Assembly (NCBI GenBank): GCA_009746045.1
Contig: RPFO01002013.1
Location: 7,501 to 71,500 of the forward strand
DNA length: 64,000 nt
Source of the DNA: Mesostigma viride
Taxonomy: Eukaryota > Streptophyta > Mesostigmatophyceae > Mesostigmatales > Mesostigmataceae
Direction: 5' to 3'
Shown: piece after piece, positions 20,469 through 62,678 of the stretch
Layout of the letters: each line of letters opens with the position of its first letter
How positions within the stretch are numbered: the first letter of the stretch is position 1
The notes under the pieces: model-generated
The model's database searches: none
Seen by the model: the letters and a program-made list of their open reading frames with translations, nothing else
What the model was told of the DNA's origin: nothing
Program-made: the position numbers and the translations under genes

Positions 20469-20472
20469 CTGT

Positions 20473-22087
<1,615 letters not shown>

Positions 22088-26520: not shown

Positions 26521-27200
26521 TTGATACATTTCCATGGGACCCTCCCCTTAACTGAAAACCCCATGCCAGACACCCCCCAAGACATCCTACAATCTGGACA
26601 TGCTTTTTTCTCCACCCTGTTCCGGACAGAACCCGGCCCCTCTGCAAATACAGCCACACAAAAAATCCTAGATGCAATTGCCCACCGCCTCTCTCCGTCA
26701 CAACAAGCTCTACTAGACGCCAGCCCCACTATGGAAGAAACATCTCTAGCACTCCAACATCTCAAAACCGGTAGCGCACCTGGTGCAGATGGCCTTCCTG
26801 TAGAGTTTTTTAAAACGTTCTGGCCCCTCATAGGCAGGGATCTATACCAATGCATCCTAGAAATCTGGAACACCGAATCTGTTGTGGGCCAGTGGTCGGA
26901 AACAATTCTCATCCTCTTACACAAAAAAGGGGATAAAACCAGTTGGAAAAATTATAGACCCATTCGCATGCTCACAGTCCCTTACAAACTAGCCTGCAAA
27001 CTCTTGCAACGCCGCTTCTACAGTGTACTAGATAATCTGATCGGCCCAGAACAAGTTGGATTCAGGTCCAACCTACACTGATGTGGCACATCAGCGACAG
27101 CATCACCATGATCATGGACATTGTTGATGACGCATGGCGCAACAATATTATAGGTCTTATTTTATTTTGGGATTTTGAAAAGGCATTCGACCGCATATCA
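26521..27200 (+). pseudogene. LINE B reverse transcriptase fragment (L1-like)
   Basis: Residues encode the N-terminal half of a non-LTR retrotransposon RT (RVT_1): APGADGLPVEFFKTFW, ILLHKKGD, WKNYRPIRML, then LIGPEQVGFR and, after a one-base frameshift at 27075-27085, HISDSITMIMDI and FDKAF-like WDFEKAFDRIS, the catalytic-region A motif. After 27195 the homology stops, and the YxDD motif, the rest of the RT and a C-terminal domain are missing. The 5' part has no endonuclease in front. This is a dead fragment, broken at its 3' end close to where LINE A begins. Confidence 0.85.
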
Positions 27201-35151: not shown

Positions 35152-35635
35152 AGTTAGGAAATGAGAAATGAACGACGTGGTATATTGCTCGAGAACACGG
35201 AGTGCTGAGAGCAATGAATTGCTTGGTTCATTAGAAAATAGGTTTACCCTTTATCAACGTTCCTCTCACTGGCTGCGCCGCCAGTGACCGTTGGGTGCAG
35301 ACCGTTGGCCCGAGGCCGCACGATGACAGGTAGCAGTCTAGTCACTGCATCGTGTGATCACAGATCAATGCACGCTGCAGTACGGTCCCTATCTAGGATA
35401 CTCTAGTACCGTCCAATGACAGGACACTACGTATACTGGGTACTGACATCTGTCACGTACCCCAGTACCCAAAGTACCTATCTAGGGAAACGTATGCGAC
35501 TCGACTAGCATTCCTATCTGCATAGCCCACGTGGTATTTATATTCACATACCAACGTAGGTTTACAAGGCTTATTCATACGTTGTATTCACAATGCCTTT
35601 GAGACTTAGTCTACAGCAAAGCATGGAGACTAACT
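35152..35635 (-). repeat. Copia element 1 3' LTR
   Basis: 484 bp, no difference seen from the other LTR. Contains, in sense orientation, TATAAATACC at about 35532-35543, which would be the core promoter in the 5' copy. Confidence 0.95.
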
Positions 35636-35843
35636 CCAGTATTGTTTTATTATTTATTTCTTAATGCAGGTCTGCACCCCCAACATTATTGTTATTGTTT
35701 TTAAGTTGATTAGGGGTACAAAAGAGACATGGCTGGTTGAGCCAGGTTGGTTACAGCTGGCTGTTCTGGCCAGGTGTTATATTGCACATTAAATAAGGTG
35801 TACACAGCTGGCTGGTTTGGCCAGTTATTGAAGCACACATTAA

Positions 35844-37532
35844 CCCCTAAATGGTCTGAGATCCTGCCGATAAATCGGCTGGATCTTCACAATTTTGCAA
35901 ACCAGATGCCATCCAACCTACCCATATCCAATGGCTGTCCTTGGGGGCCAAGCATGTCCATGAGTTGCCCTTCGGGTTGGTATATCACAACCTCACATAT
36001 ATGCAGGGTAGGCCATGTTTAACTGCCGTCAAAGTCAGGGGGGTCAAGACGCGCGTTTTCATTTTTGGTAGAATGTGCATTTTGAATTATGTTATAAAAC
36101 CTAGGCACCTACCACTTCAGGGATGATAAACAATTAGTTGCTGAACAGTTTGAGCCATTGGGGTCATCATTTGGGTGGGTATACCAGCAGTTACACCCAG
36201 TACAGCCCATAGGGGTACCGTTGGTAAAAAGCAACCAAGGGAGTAGGGGTGGGCATACGACCTCCTAATATGGCCCCCAACCATGCCAAACAATACATTT
36301 CCCTTCCACAATGATGGGGAAACATAACTGCATCATCACACTGCCCTTACATGGCACCTATGTGCAGGTGCCACCTTGTCCATGCACGTAGGTAACGTGG
36401 TACGGACACCCTACTCAAGGCATGCATTCTAGGAGGCAGCCACCAACAAACTAGTGGTGTTGAGCCTATTTCAGCCTGCCCTAGCAAGGATAAACTAGGC
36501 CTAAGCTGCTATAGCTTGCCAGGTGATGGCCAGCACACCTGGTGGCACATGCTGTCAATGGGAAGCTTTTACTCACCAGTTACGTGCTTGATGATGCCAC
36601 AGAGACCAGCCAACTGCCTCACACTCATGCAATATGTGTATGGGAAATGTATCACAAACATATATGGAGGTATTCAAACCCATACAGCCTCTAAAACTTA
36701 TCACCATCACCCTGTGGCAGGTCAACTGACTGAGGGAAGCATCTAAGAATGGTGTTTTAGAAAGGGGCCAGGCCAGGGTCAAGAAAGAGCATGAATAGTG
36801 CAAAAAGAATGTGCTACACAAGCTAGAACGTATATATAAATGTCAAACATCGATAGGAAAACGATGCTTAAGCTTTACGAGGCATGGATGGCGTTACCTT
36901 GGCCCAGCCGGTGGCCGCAAAATGGCGCATTTCGGCACACCAAAGCTGTGCAGCATGGTCGCTGGATTCGGCGATTTCTGGCCACCCTTGCACGTTTACG
37001 ACTACTATGTATCATAAAAAGTAAAAAGAAACCGATATATCCTTTAAAATACGCCGGAAAGGTATTGCTGTCAACGTTTCTATCGTCCGGCCTGATCGCA
37101 GTTTTTTCCAGCAAGAACGCTGCCGACACCTATCACATGGCATTCCCGCGAACCAAAAATTGGCCTGTATGATCTTTAGGACGTTTAAAATCAATATCCT
37201 AAGTTTGGACAGAAAATTCGAACGCAAACGTAAATGCCATGCGTGGGCGCAAGCCGCCATGGCCAGGTCGTCGTTTTCCGGAATGCACGTTGTACGTGAA
37301 AAAGTACCCTGACCCCTTATACTTTGACCGGCCAGAACACCTCTATAACTTTGTCAAAAGTATGCAAACCCTAGTACCATGCTGTGAAGAATTTTATAAA
37401 CTTTCGATCTTCTCAGCTAAACTTTTTCTAATTCTCAATAGATTTCGCGGCATCTGGTCCCCCGAGAAGGGGCCGATGCATCGGCTGGAACTCGATTTTT
37501 GGCGGAAAATCGGCAGCAAGACCATTTAGGGG
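35844..37532. mobile_element. piggyBac-like MITE, copy 1 (1.69 kb)
   Basis: Flanked by TTAA on both sides (35840-35843, 37533-37536), with terminal inverted repeats CCCCTAAATGGTCT followed by a subterminal CTGCCGAT. TTAA duplication and a CCC-start TIR are the hallmarks of the piggyBac superfamily. No transposase domain is recognisable, so it is non-autonomous. Contains an uninterrupted site CCTCACATATATGCAGG (35991-36007) that is occupied by a half-LINE in the second copy at 52 kb. Sits in the 3' region of Copia element 1. Confidence 0.85.
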
Positions 37533-37702
37533 TTAAGTAAGTGGATACAAAGCTTGTGTCCTCAAGCTGCAAATGGATACAAATCTGACCTAGCCAGCAC
37601 TCACACCCCACAACGAATGTGTTGAATTTTATGGCGCCCAGCAGCTATCGCTGTGGTAAGGGGGTGTGGTGGTTGTGTACTGTGCTATGGCCAGTCATTT
37701 AT

Positions 37703-38262
37703 TCAAACACTGACTCTGATATCATAGGGGTTCATGTTCTGAAAGAGGAGCTGGTACTGTTGGCCAGCAGCATCCCGCAGCTTCGTGAGAGCGTCTGCTG
37801 GGTTGTCCTCATCATCCACATGAGTCCAGCTGGAAAAATAGGTGGCCTCCTGTTTGAGGATCACCCAATCCAAGTCAGTGTGGACAGCAGCAGAAACAGA
37901 TTTCTTGGTTAGAAAACTGATCACAGAGAAGCTGTCAGTGTAGAGATGTGAGATGACATTGCATGTGCTGCCTGCCTGGGTTTGTAGCCAGGTGAGCATG
38001 TGCTGCAGGGAACGAGCATGCAATGCAGCAGACACCACAGCACGACATTCAGCTGAGTTGCTGCTGCCAGGTTTTCTGCGGTGTAGCCTGCTGTACCAGG
38101 AAGTGAGGGACATGTAATCTGACCTGTTGGTGAGAAAAAACAGCCCTGATTCCCGTGCCCCCATCTGATTGATTGTTCTGCTCTCCATGGAGCTGTCCAT
38201 GACACATTGGATGTGGATGTCTTCCATCAGATTCAGGCCATGGAGGATGAGGGGGGGCAGTC
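37703..38262 (-). pseudogene. Copia element 1 RNase H domain (frameshifted end of pol)
   Basis: The RNase H domain follows the RT but in another frame. It contains CVMDSSMESR (first catalytic Asp), SWYSRL, SSNSAECRAV (Glu of the TEAEY-type motif), LYTDSFSVISF (Asp) and DNPADALTKL (the ADxLTK tail typical of Copia). The break is at a C7 run (GGGGGGG on + at 38251-38257): eight Cs would join the two frames. Either a real inactivating deletion or a homopolymer assembly error. Confidence 0.88.
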
Positions 38263-41200
38263 ATTGATTAACTTCCTGATGTGACTGCATTTTATCTTGA
38301 CTAGAACATCATGGGTGACCCTGCTGATGACAGCTAAGGGAGCCCCACAGATGGCTGACCACCACCCCAGTTTGCCCTGAACAGTGGCACACATGTGTAA
38401 GGGGAGGTAGTTGTCTTGCAGCAGATCTAGACAATCTTGGATATATTCTGCAGGAGGAGAGAGAGAGCAGACCCACTGATCTGGCTGCCTGTGCAGCTGC
38501 AACATGATGCCACAGAACTGGATGGGGGTTGTGCTCAATTCCACCTGTTTGCCAATCTCATATGATTCCTGGACCTGCTGAATAAATGTTTCCACCTCAG
38601 CTCTAGGCCCACAAATGAGTTGGTCATCTCCATGCCACACAAAGAGCAGCAGTCCAGAGGGGGTGGGTACAACAAAAAAGCATGGGTCCAGGTCATCATA
38701 CGTGGCCTTGAGCTTTTTGAATACTTCCTCTGCTGAGTCTCTGAAAATTTTGGGGGCACTGACAAGCCCTTCCACCCCAATGTTGATGATAAGGTGGGGC
38801 TCATCAATGTAAGGTTTCCACACAGCTGGGGTGTCTACCACGTACACCTTCCCTTTCCACACAGATTCAGCCTTTTCTGGGTCCCCCCTGAGGAAGGCCC
38901 TTTTAATATCAGTGGCTTTGCAGACATAGTCTTGGCCTGCATTGAGGTTGTGGAGGAATAGGGAGAGCATGATCCTGAGTGAGGTTTGTTGCAGCCCAGG
39001 TGTGTAGGTTTCCCCTTTTGGCAGTGTGGATGTCCCCTTTAATTCTGTGACACATGGTCTGGCATGGAAGATTGGGGAGCCCACTTTTTGGGGTTTTTGT
39101 TTGAGAACAAATTTTAATCTGAGCTTTTTGGCTCCCTCTGGCACGTCCCATGAAGGGGTGACAGGAGGTTTGTATTGAGGGTTTTTGGGGTTGGGCAGGA
39201 CCCATTCCTGCCTGGCTTGGTGGACAATGGCCATCAGCCACTTGGTAAACCCTTTTTGTGTTTTGCATTCTTGTATGACGTGGGAGATTTGGTGGGGTGA
39301 GTGCATGGCTATGTCCCACTTACCCAGCCCAAAGGCTGAGGGATGGAGGAACTGGCTGTGCACTAACTTGTCCAGATCAGGGATCTCCCCTGGTGCATAC
39401 TGAGTGTTGACTGCCTTGATGACAGCATCCATACCAGGGACAATACTGGAGAGAGGGATTTTAAAGTGGTCCAGAGGAACTGCACCCACCCCTGTGACAC
39501 TGAGCTCATTAGCTGAGATAAGCACCCCAGGATAGGATACAAAAGGTTCCCCCAACAAGGTGTTACCAGAGTACCCCTCCACCACCTGGAAGGGTGTCTG
39601 AATACCAAGTATAGGGAGCATCACCTGTCCCACTACATCCAGTGAGCTTTGGCCTGAGAAATCCTGCACCCGTGCCCAAAATGAAGGTGCAATCTCAAGA
39701 CCAGGGATGGCTTGTGCACTGATCACACTGACCTGTGCCTGAGTGTCTATTGCCAGGGTCCAGGGGTCCTGACTAGTGCACACAGCTGAGACTTTTGCCA
39801 ACCCTTCGGCCACAGCAGCTTGTTGCTTATGTGACCTGTGTAATGCTTGCAAGGCGACTGCCAATCTTGACCTCAGAGCGGGAGGGTTGGCAGACAATTT
39901 GGTGCCTTGGGGCTGAGCTAATGCTTCCAACCCAGCTACCTCGTGCCTGGTTAAGCGATCCCCAGGTTGTGAAGTGGGCCTGGCTTCACTGAGGGTGGAA
40001 GGGTTCACAGAGGGTGCTGTGGTGCTGTCAACAGCAGTAATTGGTGGCTCAGGGCTACTGCTGGGCATGCTGGAGTTGCCAGATAGAAGTAGTGAGTCCA
40101 TGCTTAAAGACTCTTCCCCAGGCACGTCTGCCATGGGAGAATAATACTTCTTAATTCTATGACAGCTCACCCTGTGACGCTTCCCATTGATATTGTGCTT
40201 GACCTCCACGGTCTTGCTGTTTTTGGTAAATCCACGGATGGTAACTGGACCTAGCCAAGTTCCAACCTTACCAAAGCTGTTTTCCTTGTAATAGAGAACT
40301 TGATCACCTTTTTGGAATACTGGCCTGGGATGGGTTTTATCTTTTTCTGCCAGTTTTGCTGAGGTTTGTGCACGTGCAGTGTTGTACAGTGCTATCACCT
40401 CTGGGGGATATACACCTGCCTGCAGGCCTGCTGGGATTATTTCACCCCACTTGGCATGCAAGACAGGTCTCATGTTTAGGGTTGTGCACATTTCATGACA
40501 CCAGAGTGCCCTGTCACAATAGACCCCTGAAGTAGCATCCTTGGAAGGATTTTTGGCTAGTAGGGTTTTGACAGATCTGATGGTTCTTTCAATGACCCCC
40601 TGACCCTCATGATCTTCCAGCCCAGCAATCTCTATTGCTTCACACCCTTCCAGGTCAGTCAGACAGGAAAATTGTTGATCAAGCAAAATTCTGTCAACTG
40701 GGTAGAATCTGGGTAAAGCAATCATGAGTGCAACACGTAGCTGCCCTGCAGACATGCCAGGTAGGGGTTCCATTACTGTGAACCTGGACCATGAATCTTT
40801 TAGGATCAGGTAGGGTTGGACATCTTTGTTGATGTGCATCACATCCCCCACTATCATGCCCCTAGTGGTGGAAGGAGTTGCAGTATGCCATTTTTGAGGT
40901 TTGGGGCTATTGAACTGACATTCTTGACAGTGTTGTCTAGCCAGTTTTACTGCATTCCTGAGTTGTTTTCCCATGCTACTACCCCCCAGCCGTCTGGCCA
41001 GTTCCTCAGCCAGTGTTTCATGACCCATGGCTAGGTGCAGCTGATGAGCAAGCTCCTTGATATCTATGGAGTTGTCAACAGTAGGGGTTAGTGCTTTTAT
41101 GTAAGGTTCCAGTACAGGGTGTTGGGAGGACAGTAAGGTTGCTGCCTCAAAATCAATTATGCCCTGGCTGCCATCCCCAATGGTAATGAGATCATCATCC

Positions 41201-41319
41201 TCAGAGTAAGCAAGGTGAGAGAACTCACATTTGTTTGGGTAGCGAGGCCTGTTGCACCGGCTGCCTGGAGCTGGCCAGGTTGTGCCTCGTGTAGTGGCAG
41301 CCTGGGCAGAGATCCACAT
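38233..41319 (-). CDS. Copia element 1 pol: integrase - retropepsin-like - reverse transcriptase
   Basis: 1028 aa. Integrase: zinc-binding HQLHLAMGH...CQEC (residues 92-134), DDE residues D159 (VGDVMHI), D214 (LLDQQF) and E244 (GVIERTIRSVKT), and an SH3-like tail with W-x-GPV (355-392). A Ser/Pro-rich linker (400-450) follows. Residues 521-600 look like a retropepsin: LAIDTQAQVSVIS, LPILG, FQVVEGYSGNTLLGEPF; the usual DTG is DTQ. RT (RVT_2 type): TDIKRAFLRG (D804), GLVSAPKIF, DPCFFV, and HGDD (896-899) in place of YxDD. So the protease-like domain sits between integrase and RT rather than before integrase as in known Copia elements. ATG at 41319 is only the first Met; the natural start is probably a +1 frameshift from the gag ORF, which overlaps it. 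Confidence 0.92.
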   Translation of the reverse strand: MWISAQAATTRGTTWPAPGSRCNRPRYPNKCEFSHLAYSEDDDLITIGDGSQGIIDFEAATLLSSQHPVLEPYIKALTPTVDNSIDIKELAHQLHLAMGHETLAEELARRLGGSSMGKQLRNAVKLARQHCQECQFNSPKPQKWHTATPSTTRGMIVGDVMHINKDVQPYLILKDSWSRFTVMEPLPGMSAGQLRVALMIALPRFYPVDRILLDQQFSCLTDLEGCEAIEIAGLEDHEGQGVIERTIRSVKTLLAKNPSKDATSGVYCDRALWCHEMCTTLNMRPVLHAKWGEIIPAGLQAGVYPPEVIALYNTARAQTSAKLAEKDKTHPRPVFQKGDQVLYYKENSFGKVGTWLGPVTIRGFTKNSKTVEVKHNINGKRHRVSCHRIKKYYSPMADVPGEESLSMDSLLLSGNSSMPSSSPEPPITAVDSTTAPSVNPSTLSEARPTSQPGDRLTRHEVAGLEALAQPQGTKLSANPPALRSRLAVALQALHRSHKQQAAVAEGLAKVSAVCTSQDPWTLAIDTQAQVSVISAQAIPGLEIAPSFWARVQDFSGQSSLDVVGQVMLPILGIQTPFQVVEGYSGNTLLGEPFVSYPGVLISANELSVTGVGAVPLDHFKIPLSSIVPGMDAVIKAVNTQYAPGEIPDLDKLVHSQFLHPSAFGLGKWDIAMHSPHQISHVIQECKTQKGFTKWLMAIVHQARQEWVLPNPKNPQYKPPVTPSWDVPEGAKKLRLKFVLKQKPQKVGSPIFHARPCVTELKGTSTLPKGETYTPGLQQTSLRIMLSLFLHNLNAGQDYVCKATDIKRAFLRGDPEKAESVWKGKVYVVDTPAVWKPYIDEPHLIINIGVEGLVSAPKIFRDSAEEVFKKLKATYDDLDPCFFVVPTPSGLLLFVWHGDDQLICGPRAEVETFIQQVQESYEIGKQVELSTTPIQFCGIMLQLHRQPDQWVCSLSPPAEYIQDCLDLLQDNYLPLHMCATVQGKLGWWSAICGAPLAVISRVTHDVLVKIKCSHIRKLINDCPPSSSMA

Positions 41320-41500
41320 TGTTGCCCAGTGTAGGGTTGTGGTTGCACTGGTTGCGGCTGTGCCCCGTCTGGAAGCACCTCAGGCACCTGACCCTTCCAG
41401 GGTTGCCAGGTTGCCTATTGTTGTTGTTGTTGTTGCCCTGTTGGGGCCGGTTGTTGTTGTTGTTATTGTTAATTAATCGCAGCTTTTCTTGTTTGTTCAT
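41225..41500 (-). CDS. Copia element 1 gag C-terminus (zinc knuckle)
   Basis: 91 aa with Asn-rich runs (NNNNNNN, NNNNNN from TTG/TTA-type triplets on +), then a CCHC zinc knuckle CLRCFQTGHSRNQC and a second, incomplete CPGCHYTRH. Zinc knuckles of the gag nucleocapsid bind the RNA genome. The ORF overlaps pol by 95 bp, with pol one base downstream (+1 frame). The capsid part that should precede it is missing or scrambled by the 70-bp repeats. Confidence 0.8.
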   Translation of the reverse strand: MNKQEKLRLINNNNNNNRPQQGNNNNNNRQPGNPGRVRCLRCFQTGHSRNQCNHNPTLGNNVDLCPGCHYTRHNLASSRQPVQQASLPKQM

Positions 41501-41510
41501 TGTATTGATT

Positions 41511-41875
41511 GAGAGGACAGTATCTTTGCTGCCTCAAAACCCACCATGGTTTGGTAACATTTTCGTTTGTTTGCTTGTAATGAGAGGACAGTAGCTGTGC
41601 TGCCTCAACACCAACCATGGTTTGGTAACAGTTTCGTTTGTTTGTTTGCAGTGAGAGGACAGCATCTGTGCTGCCTCAACACCAACCATGGTTTGGTAAC
41701 AGTTTCGTTTGTTTGCTTGCAGTGAGAGGACAGCATCTGTGCTGCCTCAACACCAACCATGGTTTGGTAACAGTTTCGTTTGTTTGCTTGTAATGAGAGG
41801 ACAGCATCTGTGCTGCCTCAACACCAACCATGGTTTGGTAACAGTTTTGTTTGTTTGTTTGTTTTCTGTTAGTGT
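41511..41875. repeat. ~70-bp tandem repeat in the gag region of Copia element 1
   Basis: Five copies of TGAGAGGACAG(T/C)A(T/G)CT(T/G)TG, CTGCCTCAA(C/A)ACC, CCATGGTTTGGTAACA, ending GTTTGTTTGCTTG. In sense the units read VGVEAAQMLSSHYKQTNE, resembling IIDFEAATLLSSQH at residues 54-67 of the pol just downstream. The unit length is not a multiple of three, so it disrupts the frame. Confidence 0.9.
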
Positions 41876-41879
41876 TTCT

Positions 41880-42826
41880 TGTTATTGCCTCCCGGTGCTG
41901 CTTGAGCGTTAGCACCAGCCATGTCTTTACCCGCAAGTACATGCGTTTGGTAATGGCTTCTGCCACTACTGCATGCGTTATTGATTATGTGCGGCGGCTG
42001 GGCAAGCTCCATGTCTAGGGAGTTGACAGCAGTGGGTTTGATTAAGGGCCCTCAGCCCTGACATAGAGAGGATCAACAGTCTCCCTAGAGGGTAGAGGCT
42101 GTGCTGCCAAGAAAGCAACAATACCCTTACACTCATCCCAAATAAAATGGGGAGATCTGCGTTCAAAAGACATGACATTCATTCAGATAAGTCACGTTGG
42201 GGTGGACGGAGATACTTGTCTCGTTTGCATATGCCGTCCAGCCCAGGCCGCCCACCGCCGGCGATGGGGATAGGCCAGGAGTGCTTTTATCACATAACAG
42301 CTGGAGCGTTTCTATGCTCCTCATGCTGCAGCGATAGCTTTCTGTTTGGTTATGATATGTTGAAAAGATAGCCACCGCTCTTGAGCATTATATCAGAGCA
42401 TGCATGAGGAAAGAAAGCAACGGACTTGCTTACGCTGGAAGCCCCAGGGGCCGGCGCGGGGCCGGTGCCTCCTGGGGGGTTGTTTTCCTGCCGCATTGCC
42501 GCCGCCATGGCTGCTCCAGCAGTGGGTGCTGCTGTCGCAGCCGCCGGGGAAGAGGGTTGGTCGGTGCCCCATAGGGGAACCGGCTCCGCCACCGGCTGGC
42601 GCACAGGGGAGGGGGGTTGTTCGGACTGCCTCGCGGCAGCCGGACCCTCCACCTGGCTGGTATTGTCATGGTTGTTCTTTTGTTTTCTTTTTCTTTGTCT
42701 TCTTTTTGTTTTGTTGTTATTGCATGCAGGCGCACCGACATCAGCCGGTGCCCTGTTGTCTGGCGGACAACGCTGATCATCATCGTCGTCCCCAAGATAT
42801 AGTTTCTTTTTCTCTTTTTTCTTTTC

Positions 42827-42857
<31 letters not shown>

Positions 42858-42917
42858 CCAGTGCCGGTTTGAACCGTTGTTGAGTTTGATGTTGCTGAAG
42901 AGCGTTTATAAAATTCA
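41880..42917 (-). other. Leader and degenerate gag region of Copia element 1
   Basis: Between the 5' LTR and the repeats. Minus-strand frame 42652-42350 (MEGPAAARQSEQPPSPV, Pro/Ala-rich) could be the start of gag, but no capsid-like domain is seen and frames shift. Contains a (TTTTC)n tract at 42805-42855 just inside the LTR. Confidence 0.45.
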
Positions 42918-43401
42918 AGTTAGGAAATGAGAAATGAACGACGTGGTATATTGCTCGAGAACACGGAGTGCTGAGAGCAATGAATTGCTTGGTTCATTAG
43001 AAAATAGGTTTACCCTTTATCAACGTTCCTCTCACTGGCTGCGCCGCCAGTGACCGTTGGGTGCAGACCGTTGGCCCGAGGCCGCACGATGACAGGTAGC
43101 AGTCTAGTCACTGCATCGTGTGATCACAGATCAATGCACGCTGCAGTACGGTCCCTATCTAGGATACTCTAGTACCGTCCAATGACAGGACACTACGTAT
43201 ACTGGGTACTGACATCTGTCACGTACCCCAGTACCCAAAGTACCTATCTAGGGAAACGTATGCGACTCGACTAGCATTCCTATCTGCATAGCCCACGTGG
43301 TATTTATATTCACATACCAACGTAGGTTTACAAGGCTTATTCATACGTTGTATTCACAATGCCTTTGAGACTTAGTCTACAGCAAAGCATGGAGACTAAC
43401 T
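42918..43401 (-). repeat. Copia element 1 5' LTR
   Basis: 484 bp, matching the left copy base for base as far as I can read. Holds the sense TATA-like TATAAATACC (about 43299-43310 on +), the probable promoter. Confidence 0.95.
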
Positions 43402-46870: not shown

Positions 46871-47634
46871 TTAACTGGATCGTAAACCGCGACATAGCTG
46901 GCTAGCTACGCATGCACACTGTGGAAGACGTAGAAGACGCGTTAATTGACGACGAAGACATTGGTAATTAAGTCTTTCGCAGTCAGGACAGCCTCTGTTG
47001 TGTATCGATGGAGGACGCGCGGGCCTGGGAAGCACGCTGGGTGGCAAAGCGCACAGCGGCAACCGCATTCGCAGAAGAATCTCTGGCAGCAAAGGTACGT
47101 CGGACCCCTCACAAGACGGCTGCCATGGGAATTAATGAATATAGTAGCTGAGAACGCATATGCGTATATGTCGTCGCCAGGGGACGCTGTCGGAGAGTAT
47201 AGCTTCTCGCAAAGGTTTGAGGGGATTCATAAAACGTATTGTGGCAAGGATATGATGTGGGTATGGTTGTGTTCACCCTATCATCGCAGTTGACCACCCT
47301 ATCGTCGCAGCGGCATCACAGCGCTCAAAAGCTGAGGGGCCGCCATGCAATGTCCCTGTACTTTTTATTGCGCAGATAAGGAAGCGTTGTAGTGAGCACC
47401 ATGTTGCATGGGTTGCATTCGTTATACTGCCTGTAGATAGTGGCCACGACTAGTTTATTTGAGCTTACCCTTGTTGTAATGATGTGACAATACTTCAATG
47501 TGGTGAGCCAACCATGCTTGATATGATCTGCTGCGTGCAAGCTGCCATAATACCGTGATCCTGTTGGATGATCCTACTTGGTTCCCTGTCCTCCAACGTG
47601 TTAAGGATAAGCTAACCCGGGCTGTATGCAGTCC
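46871..47634. other. No recognised feature
   Basis: Short ORFs (for example 46946-47293) show no domain. Left boundary of Copia element 3 lies at about 47635, where homology to gag stops. Confidence 0.4.
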
Positions 47635-48211
47635 TAGCCTTTTCCCTGACACGCTCTGACGAGTCCCTGTTGCACGTGGACGAGTGAAACACTTGCACTA
47701 GGTTGACAGTGGGGTCCAGGGAGAGCACAACCAGCTCCATGTCCTCTAGCCACTTGTCTAGAGCTTCCTGTGCTAGTGGTGGCTTTTGTCCATTCATAAG
47801 AGTGACTGCACTCATGTGAGGTCTCGACCCTGGCAGCGCTTTCACCGGCTCCACCACAGTGGGTGTCACAGCAACAACGCCACTTGGGCCAGCAAGCATA
47901 GGGGAGATCACATCCACATGAAGCCTCTTACCATTGCCGTCAGCGGAGGTGTCCCTCTTACGCTTCTCCACGGCTGGTTGCCCATTCGCCACCGTTATTG
48001 CATCAGATGCCCCTAGCGCCCGCGCCTTGCGCGCCTCCTCCACCGAGTCTTCGTGCCGTCTCTTGCTGCCTGGTCTCTTTCCCCCATCGCCGTCGCTGGC
48101 TGGGATCGCCTCCCCCACCAGCTGCTCCTTGTCTTGCCGAGGCTCCTGGCTCGCCCCAGCCGGTGCCTCCATCTCGCCCTTGTCGCCGTCTCCCGGTTTG
48201 CCACGAGGCAT
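47635..48211 (-). pseudogene. Element 3 gag, N-terminal part
   Basis: Start chosen at MPRGKPGDGDKG (48211), because the element 2 gag has an ATG at the matching place after TATA(T)A. A basic nuclear-signal-like KRPGSKRRHED follows, then the conserved capsid start RPHMSAVTLMNGQKP, LDKWLEDMELV and DPTVNLVQVFHSSTCNRDS. Truncated after the equivalent of residue 190; a short non-homologous tail follows. Confidence 0.8.
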
Positions 48212-49439: not shown

Positions 49440-50110
49440 GTACGAGTTAGCGAGCAGCCAGAACTGTGAGTTCCTGGTCTCTCACGCACACAACGGGATG
49501 AGCCAAAGTTGCAAGGCAGCAACCTTTTAACCCGTGCACCAAGCCACTACCACGGTGAGCGGTTCCACGTCCAATGTGGGAGCCTCGGTTCGTGCTTGCC
49601 AAGCTAGCTGGTCATCCCCCATGACCAAGCTATATCCTTTGCGTTGTTCCTCGTTCCCATCGGCGTGACGAGGCACGTGCAGGCAGGCAAGCAAATCCTC
49701 AACGTCCACTGGCATCAGTGCAGAGCCAGGACGAACTGGATTTGCCTAGACTCTGCAACCTAGGAAGTACAGGACCTGTCACAAGCCTGCAAGGCCTAGT
49801 ATCCTTGCAGACCTGTGCCAGTTCCTGTAGTCCACCAGTCACAGGCTGCTGCTCCTCTGGTCTACGTGGACCACAGTCACGTGATAGTCAGGCTAAGCCT
49901 GTGCAGGCACGGCCTGCCACGTGTCCTGTCCACTATACCAGAGGACTGTACCCTAGTCGGCCACGGACGGCTAGGACTTCGGGACCTCATATCTTTCTCG
50001 TCCCTTGTCTGTTTCAGGCGGTCAGCACGGCGTTGGAAAGGTCTTTCCAAACTGCATCCACTTAGCATATTGGTTGCCCAAAATGCTTACTCCTTAAACG
50101 TGCTGCGATG
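49440..50110 (-). other. Element 3 leader / LTR-like region
   Basis: Homologous to 55884-56400 of element 2. Contains a conserved stem TGCAAGG...CCTTGCA (around 49780-49803) also present at 56160-56183. No second copy is in the window, so LTR borders cannot be set. Confidence 0.6.
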
Positions 50111-51987
50111 AATTATTGTAGCTGCTGCACGGTCGACGGTGCGGCAAAGCCAGTATGGCTGACGATTTCGTAGACATGATGCTAGGTTTTGTTGCTGGAT
50201 AAAACGTAGTATTAACCCTTGGATGGTACTGGTACCTATTTCTAGTTACCAGTTTTACTCGTAACTACAAATAGTGACCAGTTTTAGAACCGAGCTGGCG
50301 CGAATGCCAGTAGATATTTCCGTGATATTTTTAGGTCTGCTGCTAGAGCTAGATGTGTAGTACACCCTGATACCGGACATCACTATGTTCAGACCAAGTT
50401 TGCAGGGACTAATTAACGGTTACAGTACAGGGGGGTACCCTGGTGCACAGCTGCCACTCATTTTTAGCTTGTCATCTTCCAGTTATTTTTAGATAGTACA
50501 GCTGGGTCCCTGGGACAACCAGTGATGTGAGTGTTCAGAAGCCATGCATGGCTACCAATTTAACTGCCTTTCCAAGGCCAGGTCCAATAAAGTTGTTTAA
50601 ACCACATAAAATGCATTTTATAGGTGTATCATGTCTCGCACCCAGCGGATCCCCCTGGGGGGGGGTCCTTAAAATGTACCCATAGGACATTGCAACATGA
50701 CCACCAACATGACCCCCAAGTAACTCAATATATGTGTGTGCTTTGGTCCCAATATGGATAGTAAAATTGTTATTAGGTTGGTTTGTGGACTTTATAGTGC
50801 AAAGTGCAACTGGTAACTACTTTTAGGAACGAGTTAGACACCATCCAAGGGTTAAATATTATCAGTGGAAACGCATAGCAAATTTAGAGCCGATAGCGAC
50901 TAGCCCTGCTTTGGGGGATTTTGCTTGCCTTGGCGTAAAATGCGAACCTGTCGGCTAACGGAACATTGAACATGCCCGGCCAGCAACAATAGGAAAGACT
51001 CTAGTGCAGGAGCGTCCGCCGCAGGCAGACCTAAAGGTATATTAGCGTGGCTCATGCCACACCGTCCACTTTCTCGGCCATGGTCTTTGTCTGAGCCACG
51101 ATCACCATCTCGATCATCTTATTCATCTGGTAAAGCTGGCCGCAGCCTCGATCCTGGCGATGCCATGCATCCGGAAGCAGTGCCTGATCCGACGCCATCG
51201 TCAGGGCATCTACCGCCGCCTGGGAATCTGAGTAATGTCGAAGCTAGCCACAATTCTGAATCTCACGAGAAGAATAGCGGGACAAGCTCTGGGTCGTCTC
51301 TGACACTCACGTCCGCATTCTGACGATATTGCTCGGAATTAAGATCATGGAAAGCATCGCCGTTTTCAACCTAGTAAACCTACATAGCACTTGCCAGTTG
51401 CCCGGCCAATGGCCAATTGGCCATGCCCTCGAGTTTTGGCCCATGTGGCATGTGTGACTTCACTTCATCACTTGTTAGTACAGCGTCATCTAAATTTATT
51501 ATTGTCGCTAGCTGTTAATTTAATGGTTTGACAGTCCTCAATCCTATCGTGCACATTGGATATCGCCACTGTGCCTACTGAAGGGAGTGAAGGCTGTAAC
51601 TATAGTAGTAAGGGCTGTAAGGCCATAAGCCGGTGAGGCATACTGATAATTGCCTTAACAGTGACTGCCATTTTCAATCCACGTCCCACCTAACAATGCC
51701 TATATAATGGTATAGCAACCCCCCCCCCCCCCCATTCCCCAATACAAAGCCGACCTAGGCTAAGCACTCAATGGAGTGTATAACACATCTTGCTTGCAAC
51801 AAAGCTATATGTTGAAAGGTGCGATCGACCGCGGGATTTTGGTGGCTGAGGTCACATTGACCGCAGGATTTTGGGAGCCGTGGTCACACGCGACCGCAGC
51901 CCAAAAACCCTTAGCAGAAACACTGCTTATTACTTTTGGCAAGTTGGCCGACTGACCGTGTGCTATTTACAGACATTAATTCATTTG
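50111..51987. other. No recognised feature
   Basis: 1.9 kb. The 89-aa Ser/Pro-rich ORF at 51054-51323 has no recognisable family. C-runs at 51720-51733 and 50653-50664. Two approximate 50-bp phrases (GTTACCAGTTTTACTCGTAAC...) near 50240. Confidence 0.4.
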
Positions 51988-52146
51988 CCCCTAAATGGGC
52001 AGAAATACTGCCGATGCATCGGCTGTAACTTCACAAGTTTGCAAACCAGATGCCATCCAACCCACCTATATCCAATGGCTGTCCTTGGGGGCCAAGCATG
52101 TCCATGAGTTGCCCTTCGGGTTGGTATATCACAACCTTACATATAT

Positions 52147-52694
52147 TTAAAAAATATAATTACTTACAACAGAGTGAAATCACTCAAACCAAAGCAAACG
52201 CCCAGCTATAAACCTATATACAGAGCCATGTCAAAGCTCTATACTACGATAAGACCAATGGAAACGCCTAACGGGAGGAACCTAATAGCCCTGCTGCACC
52301 GCAAAATCAGCCCGCGTACGGCGGAGCATGATGTCAGCCATGGCCCGAGTCAGCGCCACCGACAAGCGCTGACGCCAATATGACGTCCAGGTCCGCGCCG
52401 ACCATGGGGCCCGCTGGCCCTCCAGGTCCAGCCGGTCCTCCCGGAGCCGGCAACACTCCTTGAAGAAGGCGGAGGTCAGGGGCCCCATGGCCCCAAACTC
52501 CTCCAGGACAAAGGGCACCACACGATGGTGCCCGACGTCGCCATAGGCCAGGAGCTTGGCCCGCTCCGCCCGGTCCGCCGTGTAACCTGCCGTGAGGGAG
52601 GCCCCAGCCACGTGGCTAAGAGCCAAGGGCCGCGCCACCGAAACGTCAATAAGCAGATGCCGTCCACCCCCCTCAAAGTCCAGCACCACGATGC
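52147..52694 (-). mobile_element. Half-LINE insertion, copy 1 (548 bp)
   Basis: Flanked by the 13-bp duplication ACCTTACATATAT (52134-52146 and 52695-52707); the other MITE copy shows the empty site. Minus strand: encodes the last ~165 residues of a LINE ORF2 (ORF 52785-52282) and ends in GTAAGTAATTATATTTTTTAA. Starts at CATCGTGGTGCTGG, the same point at which the second copy (62961) starts. Confidence 0.9.
52282..52680 (-). CDS. LINE ORF2 C-terminal domain in the half-LINE, copy 1
   Basis: Peptide VVLDFEGGGRHLLIDVSVAR...YTADRAERAKLLAYGDVGHH, then VVPFVLEEFGAMGP and LSVALTRAMADIML to a stop. The DVSV, A-x-R-A-K and PFV-E-FG-x-x-G patterns are typical of the extreme C-terminus of LINE ORF2 proteins, beyond the RT. 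Without an RT the copy cannot move itself. The reading frame is intact, as in copy 2. Confidence 0.7.
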   Translation of the reverse strand, partial: DFEGGGRHLLIDVSVARPLALSHVAGASLTAGYTADRAERAKLLAYGDVGHHRVVPFVLEEFGAMGPLTSAFFKECCRLREDRLDLEGQRAPWSARTWTSYWRQRLSVALTRAMADIMLRRTRADFAVQQGY

Positions 52695-54251: not shown

Positions 54252-54560
54252 TTAACAACAACAGATGTACAATGCTTGTATTTGTAGGCATGCAGCGACG
54301 GCAACGGCAATATTATGTGATGATGTGTTAAATAAAGGCAAGTCGTGTTGCAAGAACACAAAAAAAACATGCCTGATTGGTCAGAATGTTGAAGAACCCC
54401 CTGAACCATGCCAAAAACAGCATTTTCAAGAGTCCCCGTATGATTTGCGTATTATACCCCGTATGGGCGTATTATACACCATACCCATGGGCCCCGTACG
54501 ATTGCGTATTGCGTATGGCTGTACACTGTTGGTAATATAGATTGTTGATTAAGAGAAGAG
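54252..54560. other. Stretch with GCGTATTATAC-type repeats
   Basis: Contains GCGTATTATACCCC, GCGTATTATACACC and GCGTATTGCGTATGG near 54445-54515, similar to the subterminal repeats of the hAT element. The small ORF 54265-54540 is not recognised. Confidence 0.4.
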
Positions 54561-55875: not shown

Positions 55876-56552
55876 AGTTAGCATATTGGGGCACCAATGT
55901 GCTAGATGGATGCAGGTTGAGGAGACCTTTCCAACGCCGTGTCAACCGCCTAGAACAGACAAGGGACGAGAAAGTTATCAAGTCCCGAAGTACTGCCGAC
56001 CGGTGGGCGAGGGCGGTGCACACTCAGGGCATAGTGGACAGGACACGTGGCAGGCCATGCCTGCACAGGCTTAGCCTGGACTCTCACGTGACTGGGACAC
56101 AGTGTACTGAGGGCTCAACGGTACTGTGGCTAGTAGAAGCCAGTAACCAGCCAGCAGGTCTGCAAGGATGTAAGTCCTTGCAGGACTGTGGCAGGTCCTG
56201 TGCTGTCCTAGACACAGGATAGCCAGAGATTCCTGTATGCTGCCTGCAACGAGGATGCAAGGCAGCGATACGAGGCTCTGGCAATGTAGCGTTGCCCAGC
56301 GTTGCTCATGACCGAGGAACAAGGATGGAACGAGGTTGCATATAGCTCGAGGCTCAACGAGGCAACGAGCGTCTTCACACACGAACCTTGGTCGTCACGA
56401 CGAGTGGCGAGCCTATCGAGGGTCGTAGGCCTGGTGTGAGGATAAAGGTTGCTAGCCAGCAGCCTAGGGTCATTCCAGCCGGCAAGGACCAGGAGCTCAC
56501 AAGCTCTGCTGACGAGTTGCTGCGCAAATCGTACTATTGCTTCCACGCTTTC

Positions 56553-57736: not shown

Positions 57737-59085
57737 ATGCTTCGTAACACGCGCGGGGCGGCAGCGGGAGCGGGGCGGGAGCGGGGGATGGCGGGGGTGA
57801 GGCAAGGGCAGACACGGGAGGCCCCGCCAACGTCGTGCCAGAGGGACAGGCAATCCCAACGGCAGAGGGCGTCAATGGCAGGAGGGCGTCCAACCGGAAG
57901 AGGAAAGAGGTGGCACAAGGGGAGGAGCGTGCAGGGTGGCCAACCGACGGCGTGGTGCTGACGGGGGAGGGCCAGAATGATGCTGAACGGCAAGCACCTG
58001 GTAAGAGACCATGTGTGCCTCCGTCTGGTGTTCCTGCAGCTCATGTTCCTGCGCCATTAGCACCAGTAGGAGCTGCTGTCATTGGCAGTGACCCTCGTGC
58101 TTTGCCTGGGACTAGACCTCATATGAGTGCTGTGGCTGTGATGAATGGCCAGAAGCCTCTCAAGCCTCCTGTGGGACAGGAAGAGCTAGACAAGTGGTTG
58201 GAGGATATGGAGCTAGTTTCATGCTCTGTAGATCCCACTGTCAACCTTGTGCAGGTATTCCACACATCCACGACTAATAGGGATTCAAGTGAGAGGGTGA
58301 GGGACAAGGCTAGGCAGGCTGTCAAGGACAAGCTGACTTGGTCTCAGTTCCTAGAGGGCCTACGTCAGGAGTTTTCTGATAAGGTACTCAACCTCACTAA
58401 TCACTATAAGCTCAGCTATGATACCTTTGAGATCAAGGGCACAATAGCTGAGGAGCTGCAGCGGCTCACACGCATCAGGGAGAAGGGGGCCAAGCATGGC
58501 TTCAATCTGACTGATAGAGCAGTGGCAGATTACTTCCTGGATCGCATGGGGCTGAGTGTGGATGGGAGAAATGCAGCTAGGATGTTTGCTGATCAGACAG
58601 ATGGGACGTGGCCAGCCTTGCAAAAGGTTATTTTCAATATCCGTCCATCTGACAATGCTGCTTGCAAGGCAATCCAGGTGACTGGTGCCCCTTCAGCCTC
58701 CGCTCATCAGGTCCATGGTGACGCCCCTGGGCAGGGTGCTCAGGGAGAAACCAGACCTAGTAGGCGTCAGAGGGCTAACAGGCGCAGGCAGAATGGTAAC
58801 CAGGGTGGCAAGGGCCAGCAGCAGGGATCCAAAGGCAAGGGTCAGCAGCAGGCTGGTGGTCACCAGGGTGGTCAGCAGAACAAGGGTGGCCAAGGGCAAG
58901 GCAAGAGCCAGGGCCAGGGCACCCAGGCCAGTCAGAGCAGCCAGAACCAGGGTGGCCTGAAGAAGGCTGCTGCTGGGAAGGATGACAAGTGCTTTGGATG
59001 TGGCAGGACGGGTCATTGGCGACGTGACTGCCCAGACCAGGCCAAGTCTGCTGGAGCAGGCTCTGGCCAGGTGGGTAAGCCATGA
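57737..59085 (+). CDS. Element 2 gag (capsid-nucleocapsid)
   Basis: Start assigned at 57737 by comparison with element 3; a one-base shift within the G-rich stretch before 57835 separates this ATG from the long clean frame (57835-59085, 416 aa). The body has the conserved RPHMSAVAVMNGQKP, LDKWLEDMELV, DPTVNLVQVFHTSTTNRDS, LTWSQFLEGLRQEF (the W..F...L...F gag capsid pattern) and a Gln/Gly/Lys-rich linker (RRQNGNQGGKG, QGQGKSQGQG). Near the C-terminus is one CCHC zinc knuckle CFGCGRTGHWRRDC. Packages element RNA into virus-like particles. Stop is UGA (59083-59085) in the context CCA UGA CUU, with pol in the same frame. Confidence 0.88.
59083..59085 (+). promoter_or_regulatory. In-frame UGA between gag and pol (possible readthrough site)
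   Basis: gag and pol share a frame and are separated only by UGA CUU GAG before the pol ATG. UGA-CUx contexts are known to permit readthrough in some eukaryotes (best known UGA-CUA). Readthrough would give a gag-pol fusion; alternatively pol starts independently at 59092. Confidence 0.45.
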
Positions 59086-59091
59086 CTTGAG

Positions 59092-62000
59092 ATGTTGTCC
59101 CCTGTAAATAGTCAATCACCCCTAGTGGGACGAACAGTTGTACATAGTAATGGGGGTGTCCCTCTTGTGCAGCAGCAAGGGGTTGGGAATGATGAGGTGC
59201 TTCCACTCAATGATTGCAATAACGCTGCTGCAGCAGTGGAATTCCCTGTGCCTGTGGCAGGTGCAGGGTCTCCAGTTGTTGGGGTTGACTCTGGGAGTCA
59301 AGCCGCCAGACTGGAAGGACCTGCAGCTTCTGTGGGAACCGGGGCTGGCTCTGGGAGCCGAGCTACCTTGGAGGAGGTCCCTGGAGCAAGAGAACAGCAG
59401 GTGGGTCGTGCTATCCCAAGCACACAGTCTTTGTCACGTTCCTCTCTGTGCAGCCAGGCTGACAGGGGGTTGAGCTATGCTCAGGCTGGAAACACTCTAC
59501 ACCATATCTTTGGTCACTCTAAGCAGGCAGAGATGTTTGCTTGGAAGATTGGCAAGGAGCCTTTGCTAGAGGCCTGCAGTGCAGCTGCTCAGAATTGTGT
59601 CTGTCAGGAGAATGCTGTTCGCCTCCCACAGTCCCATGCCAGAGAACCTGCTAGAGAGCGGGGGGATATCCAGGTGGACATCCAACACATCAGGGGCATG
59701 TATCTGTTGGTGGGGGTGGATAGGTTTAGCAGATATAGGTTGCTGACCATTCTTCCTGGAATGCAGGAGCATCAGCTGTTGATGGGTCTCCAGTCTTTGT
59801 TGCCAGGCTTTGGGGTGTACACCAAGGTGCAAGCTGACTTGCAGTTTGACTGCTTGATCAAGCTGGCTGACCAGCTTCCTTGTAAGTTGGTAGTGGTCCC
59901 TAGGGAATGCCATGGGCAGCAGGGAGCTGTAGAGAGATCTATACGTGAAGTAAAAACAGTGGTGCTAGCAGCTAGGAGTGTGCCTGTTGTGGCATCAGCT
60001 CTAGAGAAAGCAGCTTGGTGTAAGGGGATTGAGGAGCAGCTTAACCACAGGGTAACCTATTACTATGATGGTGTGGCAGTCTCTCCCCTGGCATTGCAGT
60101 TTGGTATGCTATCACAGGACGTGGTGGCAGCCTGCCTGAAGAAGGCAGACAGGGTGTTTTCCAGATTGAGGCGTAAGGACAAGGGTTGGAAAATGCTGAG
60201 GCCCCAGGTGGGACTGAGGGTCAGGATGTGGAAGGAACCGTCATTACCAGGCAAGCGTGGCAAGTGGCAAGATGGGCAGGTAACCCATGTTGAGGAAGCT
60301 AACCATTCTTGTCTGGTGGCTTTGGAGAGTAATCCCAAGCACGTGTACAGGCTATCCTGGGCTCACGTCAAGGAGAGAAGGCCAACTGCAATCTGGCCTG
60401 AAGACGGCCCTGATCCTCCCTTGGAGGGAGATGAGCAGGATGAGAGCCAGGCAGCAGATGCTAACCCACCATGCTTGGATTATGGTCTGTCCTGGATGGA
60501 TGAGGGTGAGCAGGAGTCTGCTGAGACGTCTGTCACAAGGCCAGAGGTGGCCAGGGCTGCACCACAGTCCAGGGGGCTGCTTATGGCGGACATCATTCGA
60601 GCTCTGCAGAACAGCAAGCGTGATCCCAAGGTATCTAAGCTCACGGGATGGGGGTCATGTGGGGCACCAGCACTAGAAGTGGATACCAACTCACAGGTGT
60701 CCATTCTAAGGGTAGAGGATGCTGCAGGCTTGCAGTGGTCATCCCCTAGCTGCCTAGCTGTGTCTGATTTCTCTGGGAATGTGTCCATGAAGATCTTGGG
60801 AGAAGTGAGTGTGCCTATCCTGGGGGTGCCCACCACGTTCAGTGTGGTTGAAGGGTATCAGGGGCCTGCCATTCTAGGTCAGAACTTCTTGTGCTTACCA
60901 GGGGTGAGGATATCCTCTGAGGAGCTAGCATTAGAAGGGCAGGGCCGCCTTCCCTTGCAGAGATATCGCTACTCCCAGGGTCTTAGTGTGGCTGTAAGGG
61001 CTGTGAGGGGTCTAGAGGCAGAGGGTCCTGATACAAAGGAGCCCATTGCTGGGGACCTGCTGATCCTCCCTACTACGTTTGACCCACGTGAGTTGGGTGT
61101 GCAGAGGTACCAGATCCCAGGAACGAGTCCTGTACCTTGGCGCAAGCTAGTGGAGATGATGCAAAGCCCCAAGATGGCTAAGGCATGGACTCTTGGCTTT
61201 GTTGCTTCTGGGCATGAGTGGATAGTTGCCAACTGTGCAGAGCCTGTGGATGTCCTCCCTGAGGATCACCAGCTGCTCAGATTGATGTTTGTCCTCAAGC
61301 TCAAGGAGGTAGATGGCGTGCAGGTGCCACATGTTAGACCAGTTGTGACTGAGTACCATGGCACTGGACAGTTAGCAGATGAGGAGCTTTACACACCAGG
61401 GATGCTGCATGATACATGGAGGATTTTGTTGTGCATTTATTTGTCTTTTCTGCAGAAGGGGATACCCTATAGCTCTGTGTTGGTAGATTTCAAGAGGGCT
61501 TTTCTTAAGGGTGATCAGCAGGAAGCACAGGATACTTGGCGCACAATACCCCCTTTCTTTGTTAAGGTGCCTGCAGTGTGGAGGGCAGAGCTGAAGACGA
61601 GGTATTTGAGGATTCTCAAAGGCGTGGAAGGCCTTAGATCGAGTCCCATCATCTGGAGGAAGAGCTTGGAGAAGTACCTCAGGTCTGTCTGTGGTCTCTC
61701 AGTCTCTCCAGTTGATCCTTGTCTGTTTCAGGGTAGCTATGAGGGGCTGCCAGCGTTTGCCTCCCTGCATGGTGATGATCTGCATCTCCTGGGCCATCCC
61801 ACTTGGCAAGAGTTGACTCTGGCCAGGATCCAGAAACGGTTTGAACTGGGTAAGATCCAGTACATGGTTGAGAATGAGCCCATGGTGTTTTGTGGAATGC
61901 AGGCGACCTTGGTCCATCAGCAGGGTACATGGTCCATCCAGCTGGAGGGTGGTAAGGATTATCCTCAGCAGATCATAGATGCCTTGCAGGAGCCCATCAC

Positions 62001-62325
62001 CCAGGCCAGATGTGCAACAATACGAGGTATGTTGGCATGGCTGGCCAGCATTTGTGCTCCTGACCTGTTGGTACTGAGTCGGTTGACCGATTCCCAACTG
62101 GTTGAGGTGGGTGCTGAGAGAGTGGTAGAGGCTGTTCGCATGTCTCCCCCTCTCATGCTGGGTCCTTTGGATTTGTACAGGCCTTTTGACATGATGCTCT
62201 ATGTGGACAGTTCTATGGATAGTAGGAAGGTCACAGAGGTCAGGGGCCGTGCAGCAGCATTAATATCCCTGGTGCAGGAACAGTCCTCTCTGGTCTGCTG
62301 GTACAGTCGGTTGCAAACAGGGTAA
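59092..62325 (+). CDS. Element 2 pol: integrase - retropepsin-like - reverse transcriptase - RNase H start
   Basis: 1077 aa. Short N-terminal part with GVDSGSQ (65-70), a possible relic of a canonical Copia protease. Integrase: HHIFGH...NCVCQ (137-171), DIQVDIQHI (D196), ADLQF (D249), GAVERSIREVKT (E281). An acidic linker (435-480) follows. Retropepsin-like domain 525-600: LEVDTNSQVSIL, VPILGVPTTFSVVEGYQG and AILGQNFL; DTG is DTN here. RT: VDFKRAFLKG (D799), GLRSSPIIWRKSL, DPCLF, and HGDD (893-896). RNase H begins YVDSSMDSR (D1039) and is cut by a frameshift at QTG-stop (62325). Domain order and both unusual motifs agree with element 1. Confidence 0.92.
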   Translation: MLSPVNSQSPLVGRTVVHSNGGVPLVQQQGVGNDEVLPLNDCNNAAAAVEFPVPVAGAGSPVVGVDSGSQAARLEGPAASVGTGAGSGSRATLEEVPGAREQQVGRAIPSTQSLSRSSLCSQADRGLSYAQAGNTLHHIFGHSKQAEMFAWKIGKEPLLEACSAAAQNCVCQENAVRLPQSHAREPARERGDIQVDIQHIRGMYLLVGVDRFSRYRLLTILPGMQEHQLLMGLQSLLPGFGVYTKVQADLQFDCLIKLADQLPCKLVVVPRECHGQQGAVERSIREVKTVVLAARSVPVVASALEKAAWCKGIEEQLNHRVTYYYDGVAVSPLALQFGMLSQDVVAACLKKADRVFSRLRRKDKGWKMLRPQVGLRVRMWKEPSLPGKRGKWQDGQVTHVEEANHSCLVALESNPKHVYRLSWAHVKERRPTAIWPEDGPDPPLEGDEQDESQAADANPPCLDYGLSWMDEGEQESAETSVTRPEVARAAPQSRGLLMADIIRALQNSKRDPKVSKLTGWGSCGAPALEVDTNSQVSILRVEDAAGLQWSSPSCLAVSDFSGNVSMKILGEVSVPILGVPTTFSVVEGYQGPAILGQNFLCLPGVRISSEELALEGQGRLPLQRYRYSQGLSVAVRAVRGLEAEGPDTKEPIAGDLLILPTTFDPRELGVQRYQIPGTSPVPWRKLVEMMQSPKMAKAWTLGFVASGHEWIVANCAEPVDVLPEDHQLLRLMFVLKLKEVDGVQVPHVRPVVTEYHGTGQLADEELYTPGMLHDTWRILLCIYLSFLQKGIPYSSVLVDFKRAFLKGDQQEAQDTWRTIPPFFVKVPAVWRAELKTRYLRILKGVEGLRSSPIIWRKSLEKYLRSVCGLSVSPVDPCLFQGSYEGLPAFASLHGDDLHLLGHPTWQELTLARIQKRFELGKIQYMVENEPMVFCGMQATLVHQQGTWSIQLEGGKDYPQQIIDALQEPITQARCATIRGMLAWLASICAPDLLVLSRLTDSQLVEVGAERVVEAVRMSPPLMLGPLDLYRPFDMMLYVDSSMDSRKVTEVRGRAAALISLVQEQSSLVCWYSRLQTG

Positions 62326-62678
62326 CTCCCAGCAGTGACATTGCTGAGTGCAGGGCAATCTGTGAAGGGCTTCATACTGCTCTTTACTTGAGGGAGCTAT
62401 TTTACCAGCTATGTCAAGTGGCTTCCTGTCGGTTGCAGATGCACACACTGGTAAGAACTGACAGCATGGGCATGGTGCAGTTTGTGCACAGGCAGCTGGC
62501 CAGGAGCAGGGACCTTGATTACTTGTTGCTCAAGGAAATGTCTTGCTTAGCTAACATTGAACATGTGGCTGGCGTGGACAACCCTGCAGATGCTCTCACC
62601 AAGCTGGAGGAGAAGGCTGAGCGGCAATACCCTTTGCTTCGTGGGCTCATGGCCTCCATGGGGGGAGAGCCAGAGTAG
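62326..62678 (+). pseudogene. Element 2 RNase H, C-terminal part in shifted frame
   Basis: After the stop at 62323-62325 the domain continues one base off: TPSSDIAECRAICEGLH (Glu), VRTDSMGMVQF (Asp) and VDNPADALTKL, then LRGLMASMGGEPE-stop. The break is at CAAACAGGGTAACT; one additional base there would join the frames. Same gene region as the frameshift of element 1, but at a different site. Confidence 0.88.

Follow-up and report, generated by a model that had tools for sequence, protein, structure and literature searches.

Copia-related retrotransposons of Mesostigma viride with a retropepsin-like block between integrase and reverse transcriptase

Introduction

Can a Copia-related retrotransposon carry its protease (PR) between the integrase (INT) and the reverse transcriptase (RT)? 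This question is raised by a stretch of 64,000 nucleotides from Mesostigma viride (assembly GCA_009746045.1, contig RPFO01002013.1, positions 7,501 to 71,500 of the forward strand), hereafter the window, which holds two diverged long terminal repeat (LTR) retrotransposons, elements 1 and 2. A first-pass annotation had described a Pol with a retropepsin-like block behind the integrase at 37703..41319, and had proposed that a separate lineage had relocated its protease or newly acquired one. Domain order is a main criterion for classing LTR retroelements. We consider it probable that elements 1 and 2 belong to one Copia-related LTR retrotransposon lineage whose Gag and zinc knuckle are followed by integrase, retropepsin-like block, RT and RNase H (RH), and in which the protease has been relocated or exchanged. 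The label 'retropepsin-like' is given to the block according to its motifs and to Pfam matches below the cut-off.

Domain order in the window and in other copies

The open reading frame 38233-41319 on the minus strand (1028 amino acids) is present in element 1. A script check located the annotated residues at their claimed places: D159, D214 and E244 of the integrase, residues 521-619 of the block (TLAIDTQ...VPLDHF, with Asp 525 and LLGEPF at 588) and D804 of the RT, with GDD at 897. The range 37703..41319 contains the Pol order as described, but not as a single frame, the RH part being located in another frame (Table 1). The strongly diverged element 2 has the matching order, with D196, D249 and E281 in the integrase, DTNSQV at 531, ILGQNF at 594, D799 and HGDD at 893. 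An alignment of the two Pols over 973 columns gives 30% identity, and the block is among the best-conserved parts.

The 440-Mb assembly (2243 contigs) was searched for further copies. The match lists give the best candidates, in which intact copies are favoured, and the counts are lower bounds. Using the element 1 Pol, at least 45 matches were listed, all 45 stop-free, with frames of up to 2063 codons. The element 2 Pol gave at least 44 matches at 43 places; 42 matches are stop-free, and many have a 1197-codon frame including RH. A 6224-bp contig of ENA, P0001, has the same INT-block-RT order and is 45% identical to the element 2 Pol over 965 columns. With P0001 as the query, at least 38 matches of 63-64% identity were listed, which constitute a third family; all 38 are stop-free and have a 1196-codon frame. 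In the three families together, 125 of the 127 listed rows are stop-free. Given an identity of 63-64% to this third family, P0001 probably stems from another species. It was the sole relative found in a search of 5.8 billion proteins (about 8000 candidates scored per search). No relative was found in the viral_contigs and genome_contigs searches, and nothing further in the Ncbifam, Rfam and tRNA scans.

The order could also be explained as a rearrangement or an assembly artefact of the window copy. The frame changes before or within RH in both window elements and the lack of Gag in element 1 would fit this explanation, but the order is shared by many copies on other contigs, by three families and by an independent record. 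An artefact of one copy is rejected by the copies elsewhere in the genome and by P0001, and we give this explanation hardly any credence. The succession of INT, retropepsin-like block, RT and RH is genuine in both window elements, in the third family and in P0001; as the first-pass annotation had argued, it is not the rearrangement of one copy.

The window copy of element 1 lacks the Gag capsid region that is present in full-length relatives, and is a gag-less, frame-shifted derivative. The copy L037 has the same gag-less structure; thus the gag-less form itself appears to have moved or been copied. At least two such derivatives with 71-bp repeats and near-identical LTRs exist in the genome, possibly as a non-autonomous subfamily.

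Affiliation of the reverse transcriptase and the integrase

The alignment of the RT-RH region to a Copia profile spans 440 columns (E 6.3e-13). For the RT alone, hhalign gave E 2.1e-10 to an in-genome Copia RT versus 0.17 to a Gypsy RT. The RVT_2 matches (E 3.2e-5, 0.002 and 0.014) are all below the cut-off. In the RT tree, with two Gypsy elements (L043 and L044) as the outgroup, the RTs of the new elements form one clade with support of 99/99, subject to a long-branch warning, beside four canonical Copia elements of the same genome with PR before INT. These comparisons show that the RT is, as judged from its sequence, affiliated with Copia and not of the Gypsy type. The RT motif is HGDD in the lineage, and VDD in the four in-genome Copia elements. 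The proposal of a separate lineage is supported by this clade and by the INT-block-RT order of the three families and P0001.

The integrase gave E 0.31 to the Copia integrase and 0.011, over 84 columns, to the Gypsy integrase by hhalign. It is too diverged to be placed, and it has an integrase fold according to the Foldseek search of the Pol model. Only integrases and RTs were among the matches listed for the whole Pol model.

Conservation of the retropepsin-like block

The block was compared in four families, represented by L009, L033, L038 and P0001. The block identity is 38-47% for the distant pairs and 64% for L038 versus P0001. For the distant pairs, identity is 19-30% in the linkers flanking the block, 30-45% in the integrase core and 33-57% in the RT; the L038/P0001 pair has 53 and 72% in the linkers, 59% in the integrase core and 74% in the RT. 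Of the 99 block columns, 28 are invariant. By sequence comparison, the block is a conserved island amid fast-evolving linkers. The family 1 copies are nearly identical within the block.

The consensus is ...[IV]DT[NQ][AS]QVS...V.DFSG...[IL]LG..F..... The DT[NQ][AS]QVS motif is kept in all 38 loci read (L001-L038, 34 distinct places), each with DTN or DTQ. The Asp and Thr are invariant in the four families, and each family has an ILG-type motif before the C-terminal helix (ILGQNF, LLGEPF, ILGQNF and ILGQNF).

The profile search placed PF13975 (gag-asp_proteas) in register with the block in three of the four families, always below the cut-off: E 0.086 for P0001, 0.18 and 0.15 for the element 1 family, and 0.13 for L038, where it was listed second. 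By comparison, E is 7.4e-12 for the Gypsy protease of L043, from the same genome. A hand-made block consensus reached 2.4e-4 for gag-asp_proteas and 0.048 for Asp_protease_2, and mechanical consensuses reached 0.0046, 0.0022 and 0.005 for gag-asp_proteas. Seven shuffled or reversed consensus controls gave no match. A PDB profile search with A1 matched no chain, and neither a register nor a score above the shuffles was obtained by hhalign between the block and the Copia proteases.

Search for another protease

A canonical protease was sought between the zinc knuckle and the integrase, and none was found. Neither Gag nor the stretch from the zinc knuckle to the integrase has a clan AA Pfam match, and a script detected no D[ST]G ahead of the integrase that is common to the families. 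The D[ST][GA] scan picked up a single VDSG upstream of the integrase, confined to element 2, and a single SDTA within the family 1 Gag. The VDSG (Pol residue 66) was considered as an upstream canonical protease and rejected, as the motif is absent in L033, L038 and P0001. Together with the shared INT-block-RT order, these results support the proposal that the protease was relocated or newly acquired.

An RVT_2 search of the genome gave 150 scored matches, from which the four canonical Copia elements L039-L042 were read. All four have Gag, Pol_BBD, gag_pre-integrs, rve, SH3 and RVT_2 in order, with PR before INT, and match Pol_BBD at 1.9e-9 or better. No Pol_BBD match was detected in any of the four families of the new lineage. 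The Pfam type of the block (gag-asp_proteas, not Pol_BBD) leans to replacement by a non-Copia type over relocation. The protease motif of the canonical elements is DSAA in three and DTGA in one.

Is the block a retropepsin, and is it active?

Several results weigh against a retropepsin. The DT/SG motif is absent from the block, the Gly being replaced by Asn or Gln. Every copy read shows this substitution of the usual catalytic Gly, which makes the activity of the block uncertain. No protease profile exceeded the cut-off for the block in any family. The element 2 block alone had no Pfam match, the whole Pol of L033, L009 and L038 had no protease match at E<=1, and a block consensus with X at undecided places matched nothing. 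Block profiles searched against the PDB gave no retropepsin and one unrelated chain per search (an antibody and an aminotransferase). By hhalign against a Gypsy protease, DT was aligned on DT and ILG on IIG, with a score of 12.8 versus a mean of 10.8 and a maximum of 16.5 for 100 shuffles. The hidden Markov model of the block recovered none of one Gypsy and four Copia proteases held in 3245 six-frame segments. The structure prediction by AlphaFold, for the 126-residue block and the whole Pol with three sequences each, gave no fold for the block: the predicted local distance difference test score is 33 when the fragment is modelled and 20-30 across the block inside the whole Pol.

These negative results from Pfam, the PDB, hhalign, the in-genome profile test and modelling would be expected if the block were unrelated to retropepsins, with a chance likeness in DT...ILG, in elements without a protease of their own. 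We regard this as quite improbable: one Pfam family matches in one register in three of four families, and block consensuses reach 2.4e-4 to 0.005 where the seven controls match nothing. The block is very probably of retropepsin origin, judging from these matches and motifs.

Alternatively, the block may be derived from a retropepsin whose catalysis was lost, being kept for dimer contact or as a scaffold for the RT or integrase, while a host protease processes the polyprotein. All 38 loci read have DT[NQ] where DT/SG would be expected, which is consistent with this, and the strong conservation fits a structural role equally. However, the Asp and Thr are invariant in four families, and three of the four canonical Copia proteases read in the genome also lack the Gly. 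Since these three have DSAA, loss of the Gly alone need not mark a dead enzyme here. A lost catalysis is unlikely in our estimation, and it is rather likely that the block acts as a protease.

Under our preferred reading of a relocated or exchanged protease, a more specific history can be offered tentatively. A Copia-related lineage that lost its own protease may have acquired a non-Copia-type retropepsin between the integrase and the RT; this enzyme would function with DT[NQ] where DT/SG is usual, and the lineage would have expanded into several active families, in two species or more. The order may stem from INT moving ahead of PR, from PR moving back, or from loss and replacement.

Recent transposition and proposed expression

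Where a copy of family 1 or 2 has both LTRs, these are 97.7-100% identical. The LTR and target-duplication data cover these two families. Eight copies with two LTRs were examined (window element 1, L009, L011, L012, L033, L034, L036 and L037), and each has a 5-bp target duplication; L010, with a single LTR, and L035, which contains N, were left out of the count. The near-identical copies and LTRs, together with the 5-bp duplications, show recent transposition of the lineage.

The LTRs start with AGTTAG in both families, and end with CTAACT in family 1 and GCAAAT in family 2. The ends of most LTR elements are TG and CA, as stated in a passage of PMC3701649. The AGTTAG starts instead of TG...CA, with the 5-bp duplications, are a possible mark of the integrase of this lineage.

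Gag and Pol share one frame in L034 and occupy overlapping frames (882 for Gag and 1381 for Pol) in L033. The block of families 1 and 2 would be produced solely within Gag-Pol or Pol. Most likely, Gag-Pol would carry the block into particles. In family 1, Gag-Pol would be produced from one frame or from overlapping frames, and in family 2 past the TGA by readthrough or restart. As a clan AA domain, the block would dimerise within Gag-Pol and cut out Gag, the integrase and RT-RH, and would tolerate Asn or Gln in the place of the DT/SG Gly of other retropepsins. An ATG is located nine bases downstream of the Gag-Pol TGA of element 2, alike in the four copies read (L009-L012).

Features of the window

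Table 1. Features of elements 1 and 2 in the window
Feature	Position	Strand	Remarks
Element 1, whole	35152-43401	-	LTR element
Element 1 5' LTR	42918..43401	-	484 bp, AGTTAG...CTAACT; 100% identical to 35152-35635; GGGGG on both outer sides
Element 1 3' LTR	35152..35635	-	
71-bp tandem repeats	41439..41861	-	at Gag position of full-length relatives; no Gag match here; Gag frame in L033/L034
Element 1 zinc knuckle	41345..41386	-	CX2CX4HX4C; frame differs from Pol
Element 1 Pol open frame	38236..41379	-	1048 codons stop to stop
Element 1 integrase	40138..41067	-	HHCC, D159/D214/E244, C-terminal part
Element 1 retropepsin-like block	39463..39759	-	DTQAQVS...LLGEPF
Element 1 RT	38275..39222	-	WHGDDQ; RVT_2 E 3.2e-5, below cut-off
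Element 1 RH part	37706..38260	-	other frame than Pol
Element 2 5' LTR	55876..56529	+	AGTTAG...GCAAAT; L012; 3' LTR beyond window
Element 2 Gag open frame	57748..59082	+	zinc knuckle 58987-59034; zf-CCHC E 2.6e-5, over cut-off
TGA between element 2 Gag and Pol	59083..59085	+	one frame; same junction in L009, L010, L011, L012
Element 2 Pol open frame	59086..62322	+	
Element 2 integrase	59482..60381	+	Pol model matches retroviral intasomes by Foldseek (top match 6rwl, E 2.0e-9); rve below cut-off at E 0.14
Element 2 retropepsin-like block	60670..60966	+	DTNSQVS...ILGQNF; no Pfam match of its own
Element 2 RT	61270..62142	+	LHGDDL; RVT_2 E 0.002, below cut-off
Element 2 RH remainder	62226..62675	+	other frame in window copy; one frame in L009-L011

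Two stretches of about 550 bp, 62961-63513 and 52141-52693, are 98.9% identical in inverse orientation. The former interrupts element 2 after RH, and the latter interrupts a second copy of the element 1 3' region (51982-54255); an unclassified 168-codon frame (62866-63369) lies partly within the stretch. A Gag fragment at 47627-48115 on the minus strand is related to the element 2 Gag (phmmer E 3.1e-36); LTR-like pieces lie at 49760-50092, and no Pol adjoins the fragment in the window. A trinucleotide array of about 1.6 kb (20463-22112) is open in several frames on both strands, with 546 Gln codons in one. At 26509-27078 on the plus strand, a weak RVT_1 match (E 0.0014, below the cut-off) probably represents another retroelement.

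Comparison with known systems

The elements resemble Ty1/Copia (Pseudoviridae) in the LTRs, the Gag with a zinc knuckle, the integrase upstream of RT-RH, and the Copia-type RT and RH. The Copia order is given as PR-INT-RT-RH in sections of PMC3587641 and PMC3248453, whereas here the block follows INT in four families and is not of the Pol_BBD type. No description of an INT-PR-RT order was recognised in searches of an open-licence library. Gmr1-like Ty3/Gypsy elements, according to portions of PMC2774666 and PMC3587641, are another case of an altered pol order in an LTR superfamily. Gmr1 is, however, a Gypsy element with INT moved before RT, whereas the present elements have a Copia-like RT with the block after INT. 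For fungal elements, parts of PMC3248453 name the protease as the pol domain that changes fastest and bring up the exchange of modules; the block here is, in contrast, well conserved. If the lineage is a recently active one with the INT-PR-RT order, the protease can leave the Gag-Pol border, which bears on the cutting order of the polyprotein and on module exchange.

With the clan AA retropepsins (gag-asp_proteas / Asp_protease_2), the block shares the DT...ILG template and an in-register Pfam alignment; the DT/SG-ILG template is described in a section of PMC2642776. The block differs in having Asn or Gln for the DT/SG Gly, and its scores, from comparison at the sequence level, are below the cut-off. 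The DTG variants of human endogenous retrovirus ERV-K include DTE and DTD, which an excerpt of PMC6058741 lists as potentially active, not tested there. An active retropepsin without the DT/SG Gly, if the block is one, would bend a rule of this enzyme family.

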